A program made the position numbers and the translations under genes. A stretch of 64,000 nucleotides of DNA. Origin: Thermaerobacter sp. FW80 (GTDB lineage: Bacteria; Bacillota; Sulfobacillia; Thermaerobacterales; Thermaerobacteraceae). Under the pieces are notes generated by a model. The model worked only from the letters and a program-made list of their open reading frames with translations, was not told where the DNA came from and searched no databases. The stretch lies in NCBI RefSeq assembly GCF_004634385.1, contig NZ_CP037895.1:1835245-1899244 (forward strand), in the 5' to 3' direction. Shown in pieces: positions 9,155 to 16,015 of this stretch (position 1 is its first letter; the number at the start of each line of letters is the position of its first letter).

Positions 9155-11518
9155 ATGCGCCCGCTGCGCGTGGCAGCCGTTCCGCTCCGGCTCGAAGCGG
9201 TGACGCACCTGGAGGCAGCACGGGAGCGGCTGTGGGCCGCGGCGCTGACCGGTTACCGGTTGCTGACCGCGTCCGACGCGCCCGATGCAGCGGCGCGCTC
9301 CCCGGATCCCGGCCCGCCGACCGCCGGGCGGTCGGAGCGGGCATCGGCGCCGAGCGGCGCAGCCGCGGCACCACCCCGTCCTCCGGCGACGACCGGGGCC
9401 GCCGGAGCCGGGGGAGAGGCCGCCCCAGCGGAGCGGGCCCTGGGGGGAAGCGCCGCCCCGGAGGGCACGGGTGCCCGCAGAGCCGCCGGCGGTCCCTCCG
9501 CCGGCACCCCCGCCTCGGTGCGAATCGCCGCGGGACACGGTGGCAAGGGGCGTCCCCTCCTTCCCGCCGGGCGCCGCGCGGCGGGTCTCGTGGTGCTTCC
9601 GGGGCTGGCCGGCCTGCTGCCGCTGGCCGCCCTGGCCGGGGAGCCGCCGCGCTGGGACGGGCGGCTGGCGGCCCTGGCGCGGCGCTACGGCGAAGATGCG
9701 GCCGAGGCCTGGGAGGCCTGGTCCGCGGAGGTGGCGCGCACGCTGGGGATCTATCTCTGCCCCGGGACGGTGGTGCTCCCCCACCCCGACGGGATCGAGC
9801 ACGTCGGCCTCTGCTTCGGCCCGGACGGGCGGCGGCTGGCGCGCCAGCCCCAGCTGCACCGCCTGGCCGCGGATGCGCCGGTGCAGCTGGTCCCCGGCGA
9901 CGACTGGAACCCCTTCACCATCGAGGGGTGGCCGGCGGCGCTGGTCGTGCACGAAGACGGCTGGGTGCCGGAGGTGGGGCGTTGGGCGAGCCTGCAGGGG
10001 ACGCGCCTGGTGATCCACCCCGGCCACCGGCTGGAGCCCGCCTCGTCCTGGGACGCCATCGCAGGTCCCTGGCAGGTGGTGCAGCAGACCCAGATCTACT
10101 GGATCCACGTCACGCCGGCGGGCGAGTTGGGGGGCAAGCCGCTGGTCCCCCGGGCGGCCGTCTTCGCCCCCTGCGAGATCACGCCCGGCGGGCGGGGCTG
10201 GCTGGCCCGCGAGGACGGCGAGCGGCCCGTGGCGACGGTGCTGGAGCCCGGGCCGCTGGACGCGATCCGCGCCGCCTATCCCCTGGATCGCCACCTCCGC
10301 CCCGCCCTCTATCTGCGCGACCTGTTGCCCGCCTACCGACGGCTGGCGACGGCGTCCGTGGCGGACGGAGATGGTGCGGCGGAGCCAGGAGCGGAGGCTG
10401 TAGGGGCGGGACGCGAGACGCCGGCGGGACGACCGCAGGGGGTGGAGGCGGGACGCCGCGCGGGTGCGGGCGCGGGCGCGGCCGCGGCGGCGCTCGCTGT
10501 GTCGCGGTCGACGGGGGCCGAACCGCCGGCCGGGGACGGAGGCGTCCAGCGGGCGGCGCGTTCGGGCCCGGCGCTCGTCCCGGGGGAGGCGGCCGACGGC
10601 CGGTCCCCAGCGGACGAACCGGCCCGGCGCCGTCGTCGTCGGCGCCGCGGGCGGGGTGCTCGGGCCAGCGCCCCGCCGGCGGGCGCTGGGCCGGACGACG
10701 CCCGTCGCCCCGGGCTGGCGGCGGCTGCTGGGGACGGTGGGGCGCCCGACGGCCCGGAGGCGGTGGAGGGGGCACCCGCCCAGGGTGGACGGCCGCCGCG
10801 AGGCGCAGCGTCCTCGCCGGCAGGAGGCCGACCGGCGCGAGGCCGGCCGGCGGGAGACCGGCCGACGGGCGAGCGGGAGCCTGGCACGGGAGCGCCGTCC
10901 GGGCAGGAGACGTCCAGCCAAGATGCGCCGTCCTCCCAGGCCGGCACGCGGTGGCCGGCCGGGACGTCCCCACCGCCCAGGCCGGCGTCCCCCCCCGGCG
11001 GGATCCTCGGAGAGGGCGGGCGCGGGGCGGCGGCGGGGGCTTCGGGGAAGGTGCCCGCGGCGGAGGGTGCTCCCGAAGGGGCTTCAGGTGCTGCCGACGG
11101 GGCGTCCAAGCGGGCGTCGGAGGAGGCGGCGCCACCGACGGGTTCCCCTTCGGGTTCCTCCTCGGGTTCCTCGTCGGCTTCCCCGTCGGCTTCCTGGAGG
11201 GCTTCGTCGACTTCCTCGCAGGCTTCCGGGCCAGCCTGCCCGCAAGCCTCCCCGCAGACGCCTCCCGAGCCTTCCCGGGCGGCCGCGGGGGACGTCGGGC
11301 CGTCCTCGGGGGCCGAGCCGCCGGGCCCCGGCGGCTCGGGGCCGGGCGGCCGGCGGCGGCGCCATCCCGAACCCCGCGATGCGGGGCATGGCGATGAGCC
11401 CACGGTGGTGGGGCCCGCCGGCGGCCGGCGGCGACGGCGCCGGCGGCGCCGTCGCCGCCGCAGGCCGTCCGGTGACCCCTCGGTGGAGCCGGGGAACGGG
11501 GGATCGACGACCGGCTGA
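9155..11518 (+). CDS. Nitrilase-fold pseudoenzyme with long disordered Arg-rich tail
   Basis: 787 residues from ATG 9155, 11 nt after GGAGG. Residues 1-400 are colinear with the nitrilase encoded next door, sharing blocks such as GPDGR, AAVFAPCEITP versus AAVYAPLALTP, and LRPALYLRDLLPAYRRL versus LRPDLYTRYLEPAYRRL. The catalytic triad is lost: the Glu position reads VLPGLAG (about 148), the Lys position RQPQLHR (about 232) and the Cys position GWPAALVV (about 261). A low-complexity insert (about 45-140) separates the first two strands. From about 405 to the end the chain is Ala/Gly/Pro/Ser/Arg-rich and finishes with a 13-Arg run. No signal peptide. A partner or regulatory subunit of the active paralogue is plausible, as is RNA or DNA binding by the tail; neither is shown. 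Function unknown. Confidence 0.7.
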   Translation: MRPLRVAAVPLRLEAVTHLEAARERLWAAALTGYRLLTASDAPDAAARSPDPGPPTAGRSERASAPSGAAAAPPRPPATTGAAGAGGEAAPAERALGGSAAPEGTGARRAAGGPSAGTPASVRIAAGHGGKGRPLLPAGRRAAGLVVLPGLAGLLPLAALAGEPPRWDGRLAALARRYGEDAAEAWEAWSAEVARTLGIYLCPGTVVLPHPDGIEHVGLCFGPDGRRLARQPQLHRLAADAPVQLVPGDDWNPFTIEGWPAALVVHEDGWVPEVGRWASLQGTRLVIHPGHRLEPASSWDAIAGPWQVVQQTQIYWIHVTPAGELGGKPLVPRAAVFAPCEITPGGRGWLAREDGERPVATVLEPGPLDAIRAAYPLDRHLRPALYLRDLLPAYRRLATASVADGDGAAEPGAEAVGAGRETPAGRPQGVEAGRRAGAGAGAAAAALAVSRSTGAEPPAGDGGVQRAARSGPALVPGEAADGRSPADEPARRRRRRRRGRGARASAPPAGAGPDDARRPGLAAAAGDGGAPDGPEAVEGAPAQGGRPPRGAASSPAGGRPARGRPAGDRPTGEREPGTGAPSGQETSSQDAPSSQAGTRWPAGTSPPPRPASPPGGILGEGGRGAAAGASGKVPAAEGAPEGASGAADGASKRASEEAAPPTGSPSGSSSGSSSASPSASWRASSTSSQASGPACPQASPQTPPEPSRAAAGDVGPSSGAEPPGPGGSGPGGRRRRHPEPRDAGHGDEPTVVGPAGGRRRRRRRRRRRRRPSGDPSVEPGNGGSTTG
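11137..11230. repeat. Degenerate 12-bp minisatellite inside the pseudoenzyme gene
   Basis: About eight degenerate copies of a 12-bp unit like GGTTCCTCGTCG / GGCTTCCCCGTC. They encode Ser-rich SGSSSGSSSASPSAS in the gene's frame. The other two plus frames and the minus strand also stay open across it. Confidence 0.7.
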
Positions 11519-11616
11519 CCCCGGCCGGCCCAGCGGGAGACGACCGGCTGACCCGGCCCAGGCAACGCGATACGACCGGCTGGCGCTGAAACGAGCGGCG
11601 GGAGGAGGGACACCCG

Positions 11617-12843
11617 ATGGCCCGCGGTCTTTGGCCGATCCTCCAGCAGCAGGCGTTCCGGCTGGTGTTGCGCTGGACCGCCCGGCGCGGTCCCCTGCGG
11701 CGGACCATCGCCGCCATGGGGATCCGCCGCAGCGCCAATCTGCACAAGCTTGACCCGGCGCGGGTGCGGGTGGCGGCCGTGCAGCTGGAGCTCTCCCCCG
11801 TGCAGCGCCCGGAGGAGTTCGTCCGCTGGGTGGCCGACCCGCTGGCGCGGGCCGTGGCGGAGGGCGCCCAGCTGGTGGCGTTCCCGGAGGACGTGGGGCT
11901 GGCGCTCCTCGGGCTGCTGCCCGGCTTCGATCGCCTGGCCCAGGCGCCGTCGGCCGAGGCGGCCCTCGCGGAGCTGGGCGACGTGGCCGTCGCCGACGTG
12001 TTGCGCTTCCTCGGGCCGGCGGTGGCGCGCATCCACCACACGACCTTCGCGACCCTGGCCCGCGCCCACGGCGTGTTCGTCCACGCAGGCAGCGTCATGC
12101 TGCCCCAGGGCCGCGACCTCTACAACGTCGGCTTCCTCTACGGTCCCGACGGGCGGCTGGTGGGACGCCACGCCAAGGTCCACCTGCTGCCGCTGGAGGC
12201 GGAGTGGGGCCTCTGCTCCGGCGACGCCCTCGAGGTGTACGACACCCTGCTGGGCAAGATCGGCATCCCCGTCTGCATGGACGCCACCTACTTCGAGACC
12301 TTCCGGCTGCTGGCGCTCAAGGGCGCCGAGATCGTGGTGGTGCCCATCGCGAACCCGGAGCCCTACAACGAGTGGCATGCCCGGCGCGGCACCTGGGCGC
12401 GGGTCCAGGAGACCCCGGTCTACGGCATCGTCCCCGCCCTGGTGGGCCGGCTCCTGGGGTTCGAGCTGACGGGTCGCGCCGCCGTCTACGCCCCCCTCGC
12501 CCTGACCCCCGCGGGTGACGGCGTCCTCGCCCAGGCCCGTACCTGGGACCGGGCCGAGGTGGTCTGGGCCGACCTCGACCTGGTGCGGCTGCGGGAGTAC
12601 CGCCAGCGCGTCGCGTTTCCGGCGTACCTGCGGCCCGACCTCTACACCCGGTACCTCGAACCCGCCTACCGCCGCCTCCTGGGAGGAGGGACGGTTCCCG
12701 GGCCGGAGGTCCGTCCCCCCCTTCGGGCGGGGGCCGCGCCCCTCGGCCGGGGGCCGCGTTCGTCCCGGGACGAACCGGCCTTGACGAACCGGCCTTCACC
12801 GACCGCCCTGGACGAACCGCCTGTCGGGAACCGCCCGGGATGA
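11617..12843 (+). CDS. Carbon-nitrogen hydrolase (nitrilase superfamily)
   Basis: 408 residues; ATG 11617 follows GGGAGGAGGG. A complete Glu-Lys-Cys triad is visible: FPED with E91, HAKVHLL with K187, and PVCMDATY with C220. It should therefore hydrolyse an amide or nitrile; the substrate cannot be read from sequence. The HTTFATLARAHGVFVHAGS and LYNVGFLYGPDGRLVGRH strands are typical of the alpha-beta-beta-alpha sandwich. The N-terminal 45 residues form a basic amphipathic extension and the last 55 are Pro/Arg-rich. The end of the gene contains a 14-bp tandem repeat. It lies 98 bp after the inactive paralogue, probably in the same operon, so the pair may act as a heteromer (inference). Confidence 0.85.
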   Translation: MARGLWPILQQQAFRLVLRWTARRGPLRRTIAAMGIRRSANLHKLDPARVRVAAVQLELSPVQRPEEFVRWVADPLARAVAEGAQLVAFPEDVGLALLGLLPGFDRLAQAPSAEAALAELGDVAVADVLRFLGPAVARIHHTTFATLARAHGVFVHAGSVMLPQGRDLYNVGFLYGPDGRLVGRHAKVHLLPLEAEWGLCSGDALEVYDTLLGKIGIPVCMDATYFETFRLLALKGAEIVVVPIANPEPYNEWHARRGTWARVQETPVYGIVPALVGRLLGFELTGRAAVYAPLALTPAGDGVLAQARTWDRAEVVWADLDLVRLREYRQRVAFPAYLRPDLYTRYLEPAYRRLLGGGTVPGPEVRPPLRAGAAPLGRGPRSSRDEPALTNRPSPTALDEPPVGNRPG

Positions 12844-13663
12844 ACCCGCCTGGGCCCCGCCGCCCGGGACGGCTGCCGCCCCTGTCCGCCGGCGAGGCCG
12901 TCGCCGTGTCCCCGAGGCCGGCGCCCACGCCGCGCCGGGTGACCCTGCACCCGGCGCGGGTGGTGGGCTGCACCCGGCGCGAGGGCAATGGGTGGCGGTG
13001 GGGGATCCCCTCGCGGGTGGCCTCCCGCGGAGATCGTGTACCCGCGGGGCGCCGCCGAAGCCGCGGGCGACCGGGGTCGGTCGACAGGGCGACTTGGCGC
13101 CGCACCCCAGGAGCCGGCGGGTTGTCCGCCGGCTGCGAAGACACCGGGGGTCGATCGACGGGTCGACAGGGCGCCGCACCGGCGCGGCCCTCCGCCCGCG
13201 CATACTTTGGGCTCCCGCAGAGAGGTTAGCATCGGTGCCCCGGGTCGGGCCGGCGCCGCGGAGCACCGGAGCCGCCGGGGATCGGGCGGGGGCCGGTCGT
13301 CCCCGCGCCGGGCGGGCAGCGCCCGCGATGGGGCATCCGGCGAAGCGCATCGGCGAAGCGCATCCCGGATCACCGGGCCGGAGCGATCCGCCGACCCGAT
13401 GCGTTTCATCACCCGTGCGAACCGGCGCGGTCCATCGCACCCGTGGGTTCCATCCCATGGCTGTGCCGGGGGGCGGGCGGCGAGCAAGGGGCCGACGGAC
13501 GAGGGGTGCGCAGCGCGCGAGGGGGGATTCCGCCGTCGTGCGGGCAACGGAAGCGCTCCGCCAAGGGCTGGATGGATGGGGCGGGAAACGGGCCCGGGAC
13601 CGCGCGGGACGAGGGCAGCTGCGGGGGGTCGTCGGTTCCCGCGGCAGCGTCCGGGCCGCCGCC
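12844..13663. other. 820-bp interval without a supported gene
   Basis: All frames here are long because of the GC content, but none shows a recognisable family, consistent GC3 bias or a start with SD. Short repeats of ACCCGGCGCG and of GGTCGACAGGGCG are present. It probably contains the promoter and leader of the lipoprotein gene that follows. An in-frame GTG at the VRATEALRQG codons (about 13540) could extend that gene upstream. Confidence 0.4.
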
Positions 13664-14446
13664 ATGGCCGGGGTCGTCCTGGCAGGGCTCTGGCTGGGCG
13701 GCTGTGCCATGGGGGGTGGCGGCGGAGGTGGTGCCCAGGCCAAGCCGTCGCCCGAGGAGGTGCGCTCCGCCGTCCGCCAGGAGCTGCAGAGCCCCGAGAT
13801 GCAGGCCCAGATCCAGCAGATCATCACCCAGCAGGTGCAGGCGCTGGCGGCCCAGCAGGTCCTGTTGACCCCCGAGGGGCAGAAGCAGCTGGTCGAGCAG
13901 CTCGAGACGGTGGCCGCCTCGCCCCAGGGCCAGGCGGCGATGCAGACGGGTGTGCAGTCGTTCCTGCGGTCGCCCCAGGGGCAGCAGCTGATCCGGCAGG
14001 CGGTGACCATGCAGCTGCAACAGATGCTGAGCGGTGCCGCGGGGGGTGGCGGGGCCGGCGGGGGGCCGGTGGCGCGGGAGGAGGCGGCATGGGCGGCGGC
14101 GGGGGCGGCGGAGGTGGCGGGGGCTAGCGCAGGAGGCCGCCGCACTCGCGCGAGTGGCCGTCCTTCGCTGCGTCCAAGGCCCTGCGCAGGAGACCGCCGC
14201 ACGGTTCCGCGGGTGGCCCTCGGTCGCCGCGTCCAGAGCCCCCGCAGGAGGTCACCGTCGCACGGTTCCGCGCGGCTGGCCGTCTTGCGCCGCGTCCAAG
14301 GCCGCGTTCGCCGCGCCCGTCCGCCATGCCCCGCCGATCTGGTGGGCCTTCACTCAATCCCCATGTCCCTCGGGCGGTCTCCAATCGGGGCCGAACGCCG
14401 CGGCGAGAGCAACCCGCCTGGACCCCCTCGGGCGTGCTGCGGGTGA
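13664..14446 (+). CDS. Putative lipoprotein, GerD-like; 3' end doubtful
   Basis: ATG 13664 starts a short signal peptide with a lipobox (LWLGGC, Cys14), so the mature protein should be a membrane-anchored lipoprotein. Residues 30-125 consist of short helical repeats: EEVRSAVRQELQSPEMQ, LTPEGQKQLVEQLETVAASP and FLRSPQGQQLIRQAV. Their pattern resembles GerD, the lipoprotein that clusters germinant receptors in the spore inner membrane. Identity is too low to be sure. The frame then runs on into non-coding tandem repeats and stops at 14446. Adding one base to the G6 run at 14060-14065 would instead give a Gly-rich tail ending at TAG 14127, a more credible end. A sequence indel or a real frameshift is likely. 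Confidence 0.55.
   Translation: MAGVVLAGLWLGGCAMGGGGGGGAQAKPSPEEVRSAVRQELQSPEMQAQIQQIITQQVQALAAQQVLLTPEGQKQLVEQLETVAASPQGQAAMQTGVQSFLRSPQGQQLIRQAVTMQLQQMLSGAAGGGGAGGGPVAREEAAWAAAGAAEVAGASAGGRRTRASGRPSLRPRPCAGDRRTVPRVALGRRVQSPRRRSPSHGSARLAVLRRVQGRVRRARPPCPADLVGLHSIPMSLGRSPIGAERRGESNPPGPPRACCG
14130..14304. repeat. 57/58-bp tandem repeat, three imperfect copies
   Basis: Copies start at 14130, 14187 and 14245. Each begins CAGGAG, passes GCCGCAC and CGG-GTGGCC, and ends GCGTCCAAGGCC or GCGTCCAGAGCC. No gene overlaps except the doubtful extension of the upstream lipoprotein frame. Confidence 0.85.
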
Positions 14447-15244: not shown

Positions 15245-15521
15245 GGGATCACCCCCCGCTCCTAGCCTGCCCGCGGGGGGCCCGGGATGTGTGCCCGCCG
15301 TGCACCGGCCGCGGCCCGGGGGATGGATCGCCACGCCGCCGGGCCTGCCGGCCGGATGCCAAGGGTGCCGGGGGACGGCCCGGGGGCCGGTGGCGGGGAC
15401 GGCGCGCCGGCCCCGTCACCGGCCGCCCCTGAGTCGCCATGCCACGCCCGGCAGCGGCCGTCCAGGGGCTGGCGTGCCCGCGGGGCGCTGCATGCGCACC
15501 GGTGGGCAGCAGCCGCCGCGG

Positions 15522-15690
15522 CCCCTCGGCTCGCTGGATGCCGAACCCCGCGGGGGGCCGGATCGTGGCTGCAGCGTGTACCCCGGGCCCGTCCCCTCGG
15601 CTCGCTGGATGCCGAACCCGCGGTGAGGTCCGGATCGTGGCCGCGGCGTCTGTCCCGGGCCCGGCCCCTCCGCTCACCGGATGCCGAACC
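15522..15690. repeat. 71-bp tandem repeat derived from the 3' end of acyP
   Basis: CCCCTCGGCTCGCTGGATG and the following CCGAACCC start at 15522 and 15593. A third, shorter match (CCCCTCCGCTCACCGGATG CCGAACCC) starts at 15665 and contains the acylphosphatase stop and last codons (GFGIR). The first two copies also share the GGATCGTGG-CCGCGGCGT part. The rest of 15245-15521 holds no supported gene. Confidence 0.85.
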
Positions 15691-16015
15691 CCGCTGACAG
15701 GCCGCGGGCGGCGCCCCAGCGCACCTCGAGGCCTTGGACCTGTGCGGCGGGTGGGCCCTGGCGCAACGCCTCGATGAACGCGTCCAGCGCCGCGCGCTCG
15801 CCCTCGGCGAGAACGGTCACGGTGCCGTCGGGTTCGTTGCGCGCCCACCCTCGCAGCCCGAGGGCCAGGGCACGGCTGCGCGCGAAGGCCCGGTAGCCGA
15901 CGCCCTGCACCTGCCCGTGCACGGTGACCTCGACCCGAGCCAAGTCGGTCGGGGCTGCATCGCCCGCGATGTCGGCGGGCCGATCCGACCGGCTCGATGC
16001 GCCGTCCTGCGTCAC
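15674..16015 (-). CDS. acyP: Acylphosphatase
   Basis: 113 residues; hydrolyses acyl phosphates such as acetyl or carbamoyl phosphate. The signature VTVHGQVQGVGYRAFARSRA holds the phosphate-binding loop with the catalytic Arg. GWARNEPDGTVTVLAEGE holds the catalytic Asn. GTG 16015 is taken as start, 11 nt after AGGAGG. About 20 residues precede the usual 90-residue fold. The last codons are copied in the downstream tandem repeat. Soluble; stands alone, divergent from the TauE/SafE genes. Confidence 0.92.
   Translation of the reverse strand: MTQDGASSRSDRPADIAGDAAPTDLARVEVTVHGQVQGVGYRAFARSRALALGLRGWARNEPDGTVTVLAEGERAALDAFIEALRQGPPAAQVQGLEVRWGAARGLSAGFGIR

Follow-up and report, generated by a model that had tools for sequence, protein, structure and literature searches.

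The question raised by this locus is why, in Thermaerobacter sp. FW80, a gene coding for a nitrilase-fold protein without catalytic residues (gene A) is located directly in front of a gene coding for an apparently intact enzyme of the same superfamily (gene B), and what such a protein could contribute to its neighbor. Both genes lie in the window, the whole stretch of 64,000 nucleotides that was analyzed, which is part of a 3.04-Mb genome (Table 1). Comparison of this pair with its relatives indicated that it is a conserved pseudoenzyme-enzyme unit, which is of greater significance than the reading of the sequence alone had shown.

Two contiguous nitrilase-fold genes

Genes A and B are preceded by Shine-Dalgarno-like motifs (GAGGAGG before the ATG of gene A and AGGAGG upstream of gene B), and their products could be aligned over 233 residues with 34% identity (E = 9e-28). 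The preliminary description of this DNA had proposed a tandem nitrilase pair in which the first copy has lost the catalytic Glu, Lys, and Cys, and this was confirmed: the positions of Glu91, Lys187, and Cys220 in gene B are occupied by Gly150, Gln233, and His266 in gene A. The fold common to A and B is that of the nitrilase superfamily (PF00795; archaeal nitrilase/amidase 3ivz and N-carbamoylputrescine amidase 5h8k), of which B keeps the Glu-Lys-Glu-Cys tetrad, the second glutamate being Glu194, whereas A is devoid of the catalytic residues. Gene B was a full match to the Pfam family PF00795 (CN_hydrolase; 84.6 bits, with a cut-off of 23.2), and gene A scored 16.4 bits, under that cut-off; 19 out of 20 A homologs matched the family with E<=0.001. 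In the AF2 model of gene A from the window the core adopts a nitrilase fold with pLDDT values of ~90–98, while the insert and the tail are disordered, and the model matched nitrilase-superfamily structures of the PDB (E 4e-14). Gene products were also compared with the NCBIfam equivalogs nitrile_Arch, aguB, Nit6803, and deaminated glutathione amidase: gene B of the window reached at best 63–65 bits versus cut-offs of 410–500, a second B scored lower, and no NCBIfam equivalog cut-off was attained by A or B among the members shown.

Table 1. Features of genes A and B in the window (positions are those of the window).
Feature	Position	Strand	Basis or remarks
Gene A, nitrilase-fold paralog without catalytic residues	9155..11518	+	787 aa; open frame, RBS, homology to gene B, AF2 core
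Gene A, N-terminal nitrilase-fold part, aa 1–44	9155..9286	+	AF2 pLDDT 91–98; aligns with other A proteins
Gene A, disordered insert, aa 45–139, Thermaerobacter only	9287..9571	+	AF2 pLDDT <50
Gene A, main nitrilase-fold core	9572..10372	+	Purifying selection; A-family motifs
Gene A, position of catalytic Glu (Gly150)	9602..9604	+	A/B family alignment
Gene A, position of catalytic Lys (Gln233)	9851..9853	+	Gln in ~95% of A proteins
Gene A, position of catalytic Cys (His266)	9950..9952	+	Mostly Gly across the A family
Gene A, disordered tail, aa ~407–787, Thermaerobacter only	10373..11515	+	AF2 pLDDT <50, tandem repeats, Arg runs
Gene A tail, 8-Arg run	10625..10648	+	Sequence
Gene A tail, 13-Arg run	11426..11464	+	Sequence
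Gene B, predicted intact nitrilase-superfamily hydrolase	11617..12843	+	408 aa; PF00795 84.6 bits
Gene B, catalytic Glu91	11887..11889	+	A/B alignment
Gene B, catalytic Lys187	12175..12177	+	A/B alignment
Gene B, catalytic Cys220	12274..12276	+	A/B alignment

The insert of ~95 residues, the 380-residue tail, and the 13-Arg run, which had been listed together with the loss of the catalytic residues as features of gene A, do occur in it, but insert, tail, and Arg runs were absent from the A homologs outside Thermaerobacter. They are a genus-level addition and do not define the A gene family. Tandem repeats with units of 14–72 bases were observed in the window at 11506–11582, 12764–12871, 14127–14300, and 15519–15694, that is, in or after both genes and further downstream, and the tail of gene A is partly made of GC-rich repeats similar to these. 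Gene A of the sister genome G001 (locus L035) has its N-terminal block in another frame than the core, with the break located within the insert region, which corresponds either to a frameshift or to an assembly error.

Distribution, conservation, and origin of the pair

An alignment of B was used to search 84,980 GTDB species genomes, and the best 80 loci were examined. Six of them start too close to a contig edge to judge the upstream gene. In all the other 74 loci, those with enough upstream DNA, A was found immediately 5′ of B, as a separate gene in 69 and fused to B in a single ORF in 5; A and B genes thus co-occur obligately at every usable locus. The distance from the stop codon of A to the match of B had a median of -9 nt among these best loci, an overlap that points to translational coupling. 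Several lineages have natural fusions of A and B (L048, L053, and L193; L054 and L190; L116 and L118; L187). According to the record titles, some of which may be wrong in the case of MAGs, most of the best 80 loci belong to Bacillota, with one from Actinomycetota (Hakubella). Other searches gave the same picture: among 61 related genomes, most families with a strong match showed a second match adjoining the first; A-like matches were detected in many families across the class; and 88 of 398 genomes drawn evenly from the phylum contained a match with E <= 1e-35, most of them as two adjoining matches. The A-B pair is ancient and widespread in thermophilic and anaerobic Bacillota, far beyond Thermaerobacter. 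Some matches of the phylum search stood alone. Four of them (L196, L197, L202, and L203) were considered as B genes lacking A and rejected, as they are other nitrilases that keep Glu-Lys-Cys; L201 was likewise rejected as a lone member of the pair, since it scored higher with the B profile than with the A profile and grouped with L196 outside the B clade. No family B without A was found among these lone matches (L196, L197, and L201–L203).

Conservation of the catalytic positions differed between both families. In ~105 aligned A sequences, the Lys position is occupied by Gln in ~95% and by Lys in none; the catalytic Glu is retained in a single one (L177) and the Cys in six (L116, L118, L126, L134, L136, and L147). 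A homologs keeping the triad, the finding that would have pointed to a sequence error in gene A, were sought within the pair and none was found. The only candidate, L100_A, keeps all three residues and was excluded as an unrelated nitrilase, given that it groups with the outgroup in the tree. Glu-Lys-Glu-Cys was retained in 110 of 113 B homologs; three homologs depart from it, besides the decayed-looking B proteins of L198–L200, and the B of L041 lacks the Cys. The A family has a signature of its own, with core motifs PEV.R..AL.G, W..VQQ.Q, APCE.TP, and LYLR..LPAY. Near-invariant positions include the Gln at the Lys position (95%), a Pro after the Cys elbow (100%), QQNQ, and APCE, whose Cys-Glu pair is mostly absent from B; gene A of the window deviates at some of these signature positions. 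Two helices of A, the one that follows the Cys elbow and the W..VQ helix, belong to its best conserved blocks; in the nitrilase superfamily both are located at the dimer (A) interface. Nitrilases dimerize across this A-interface (PMC6637149).

Departures from this pattern were observed in a few families. In f8 and f47 (L092–L098, L101, L109, and L111) the recognizable A is mostly ~130–260 aa long and strongly diverged, and it is still located directly 5′ of B. In f72 (L198, L199, and L200) catalytic residues are lost in A and, in part, also in B, and both genes are open and adjoining. The shortened A proteins and the decayed B proteins indicate that the relation between A and B differs between lineages.

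In a maximum-likelihood tree (a quick run with SH-aLRT support but no bootstrap, containing several long branches), A formed one clade (SH-aLRT 98) that was sister to nearly all B sequences. B formed one group with the exception of the long-branched L198_B, and the A/B split was older than the sampled lineages. Since A is a single clade sister to B, both genes likely derive, as judged from their sequences, from a single old duplication. Selection was estimated within Thermaerobacter by the Nei-Gojobori method. The dN/dS of the gene A core was 0.19–0.34, showing that its fold is under purifying selection, and that of the gene B core was ~0.15 between species; values for the insert and tail of gene A were 0.67–0.72 in the closest species pair, with 0.72 for the insert. 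Pairwise distances of A and B correlated over 91 loci (r = 0.86, with the shared phylogeny left in).

Role of A in the pair

We consider it probable that A and B assemble into an amidase of the nitrilase superfamily that is obligately heteromeric, A being the non-catalytic subunit and B the one with the active site. According to this proposal, A would be a pseudoenzyme that arose by one ancient duplication and kept the fold and the dimer-interface helices, while its catalytic Lys would have become a fixed Gln, with the Glu lost and the Cys lost in most lineages. B would carry the active site of the amidase, and A would most likely pair with it as the dimer half devoid of catalysis, a role in which it could stabilize B, shape the active site, or regulate it. 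The loss of the catalytic residues of A, which has nevertheless been kept beside or fused to B, makes a non-catalytic partner its most likely function. The preliminary description had included this function among its suggestions, and the conserved pair, the lost triad, and the purifying selection on A now give it good support. A physical A-B heterodimer is suggested by the fusions, by the adjacency of the genes, and by the predicted structure of a fusion. With an input alignment restricted to natural fusions, the fusion L048 was predicted as one compact unit in which two nitrilase domains are packed together (pTM 0.77, pLDDT 79). This model matched nitrilase structures with E values down to 1e-19, and the matches of its single domains were nitrilases and amidases. 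A may also have a role in the activity.

Other functions of A were weighed against this one. A could have acquired a new chemistry, its own conserved residues (the Gln at the Lys position, the next His, Asp231, Glu281, Cys303, and Glu304, in gene B numbering) catalyzing another step of the same pathway. The near-invariant polar signature of the family, including APCE, goes beyond what a pure scaffold might need and is in accordance with such an activity; however, almost no A protein retains Glu or Lys, most have lost the Cys, gene A of the window differs at some signature positions, and the truncation of A in f8 and f47 fits better with a structural role, so we regard a new chemistry as improbable. 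We assign the same low probability to A being a ligand-binding sensor or regulator of the B pathway that forms no complex with B. Retention of a nitrilase-like pocket fold and, in some lineages, an operon shared with transporter and glycosidase genes would be compatible with a sensor, but the repeated A-B fusions, and the fact that B directly follows A wherever the locus could be judged, point instead to a physical partnership.

Binding of A to nucleic acids through its long basic tail, as a tethered scaffold or regulator, had also been suggested. Arg clusters are indeed present in the tails of the four Thermaerobacter genomes compared, and the genome has hardly any other run like that of 13 Arg. 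Against this, neither the insert nor the tail with its Arg runs occurs in A proteins outside the genus; both regions are predicted to be disordered and evolve in a nearly neutral manner in the closest species pair, and the tail contains tandem repeats. These features leave the tether unsupported, and we consider it highly unlikely. Even less credible, and rejected, is the view of gene A as a product of sequencing error or a pseudogene in decay: although A evolves faster than B and its N-terminal block lies in another frame in L035, the dead state is common to ~100 loci from many families, and the purifying selection and the fixation of substitutions also speak against decay.

We know of no member of the nitrilase superfamily that exists as an obligate pair of a dead and a live gene, and the open-licence literature searched yielded no earlier account of a dead nitrilase paralog, of the A-B pair, or of Thermaerobacter nitrilases. 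Retention of a catalytically dead paralog as a subunit beside a live one is known from the cyanobacterial ClpR/ClpP; fold and function are unrelated to those of A and B, and the likeness is in principle only. In grasses, the activity of the nitrilases NIT4A and NIT4B needs a heteromeric complex of the two isoforms (PMC3537687; PMC5154151). This is a heteromer like the one proposed for A and B, but it belongs to a different, plant branch, and those reports are not known to include a partner devoid of all three catalytic residues. The A-B family comprises one old duplication, ~90 sequenced pairs, intermediates that keep the Cys without Glu and Lys, fusions, and lineages with a shrinking A. With such material, the reason for the persistence of a dead enzyme copy becomes directly testable.

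Neighboring genes and putative substrate

In many Bacillota, the pair points to an enzyme and a pathway that are as yet unassigned, and the genes around it were inspected in the best 80 B loci. A gene similar to those for GH125 glycosidases adjoins the pair in 31 of them, and transporters of the GPH/MFS type are found nearby in ~30; the other neighbors are housekeeping genes. Recurring operons have the order GH-A-B-MFS (Thermovorax, L182) or MFS-A-B-GH (L120). By hand count, 31 of the 32 strong GH matches in the class came from genomes with the A-B pair, the remaining one being from G004, an assembly of 580 contigs. In Thermaerobacter the GH125-like gene is located 1.2 Mb away from the pair. 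The recurrence of GH125-like glycosidases and GPH/MFS transporters next to A and B suggests an amide-bearing glycoside as substrate. We propose only tentatively, as a reading with perhaps some chance of being correct, that this is an undescribed and ancient enzyme-pseudoenzyme pair of Bacillota at large, an obligate heteromeric hydrolase whose pathway, shared with a GPH-type symporter and a GH125-like glycosidase, would serve amide-bearing glycosides; that the substrate of A-B itself is an amide-bearing sugar derivative is somewhat more doubtful still.

The similarity of the glycosidase-like neighbor to GH125 alpha-mannosidases (PF06824) covers the C-terminal half of their profile, and this neighbor differs from them as a separate, uncharacterized family, whose Thermovorax member stays under the Pfam cut-off; a search by sequence gave no relative of it in the PDB. 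Its members (L182:3843–5786, L115:6969–9116, and L120:6606–8864, among others) are ~620–720 aa long and have invariant residues of their own.
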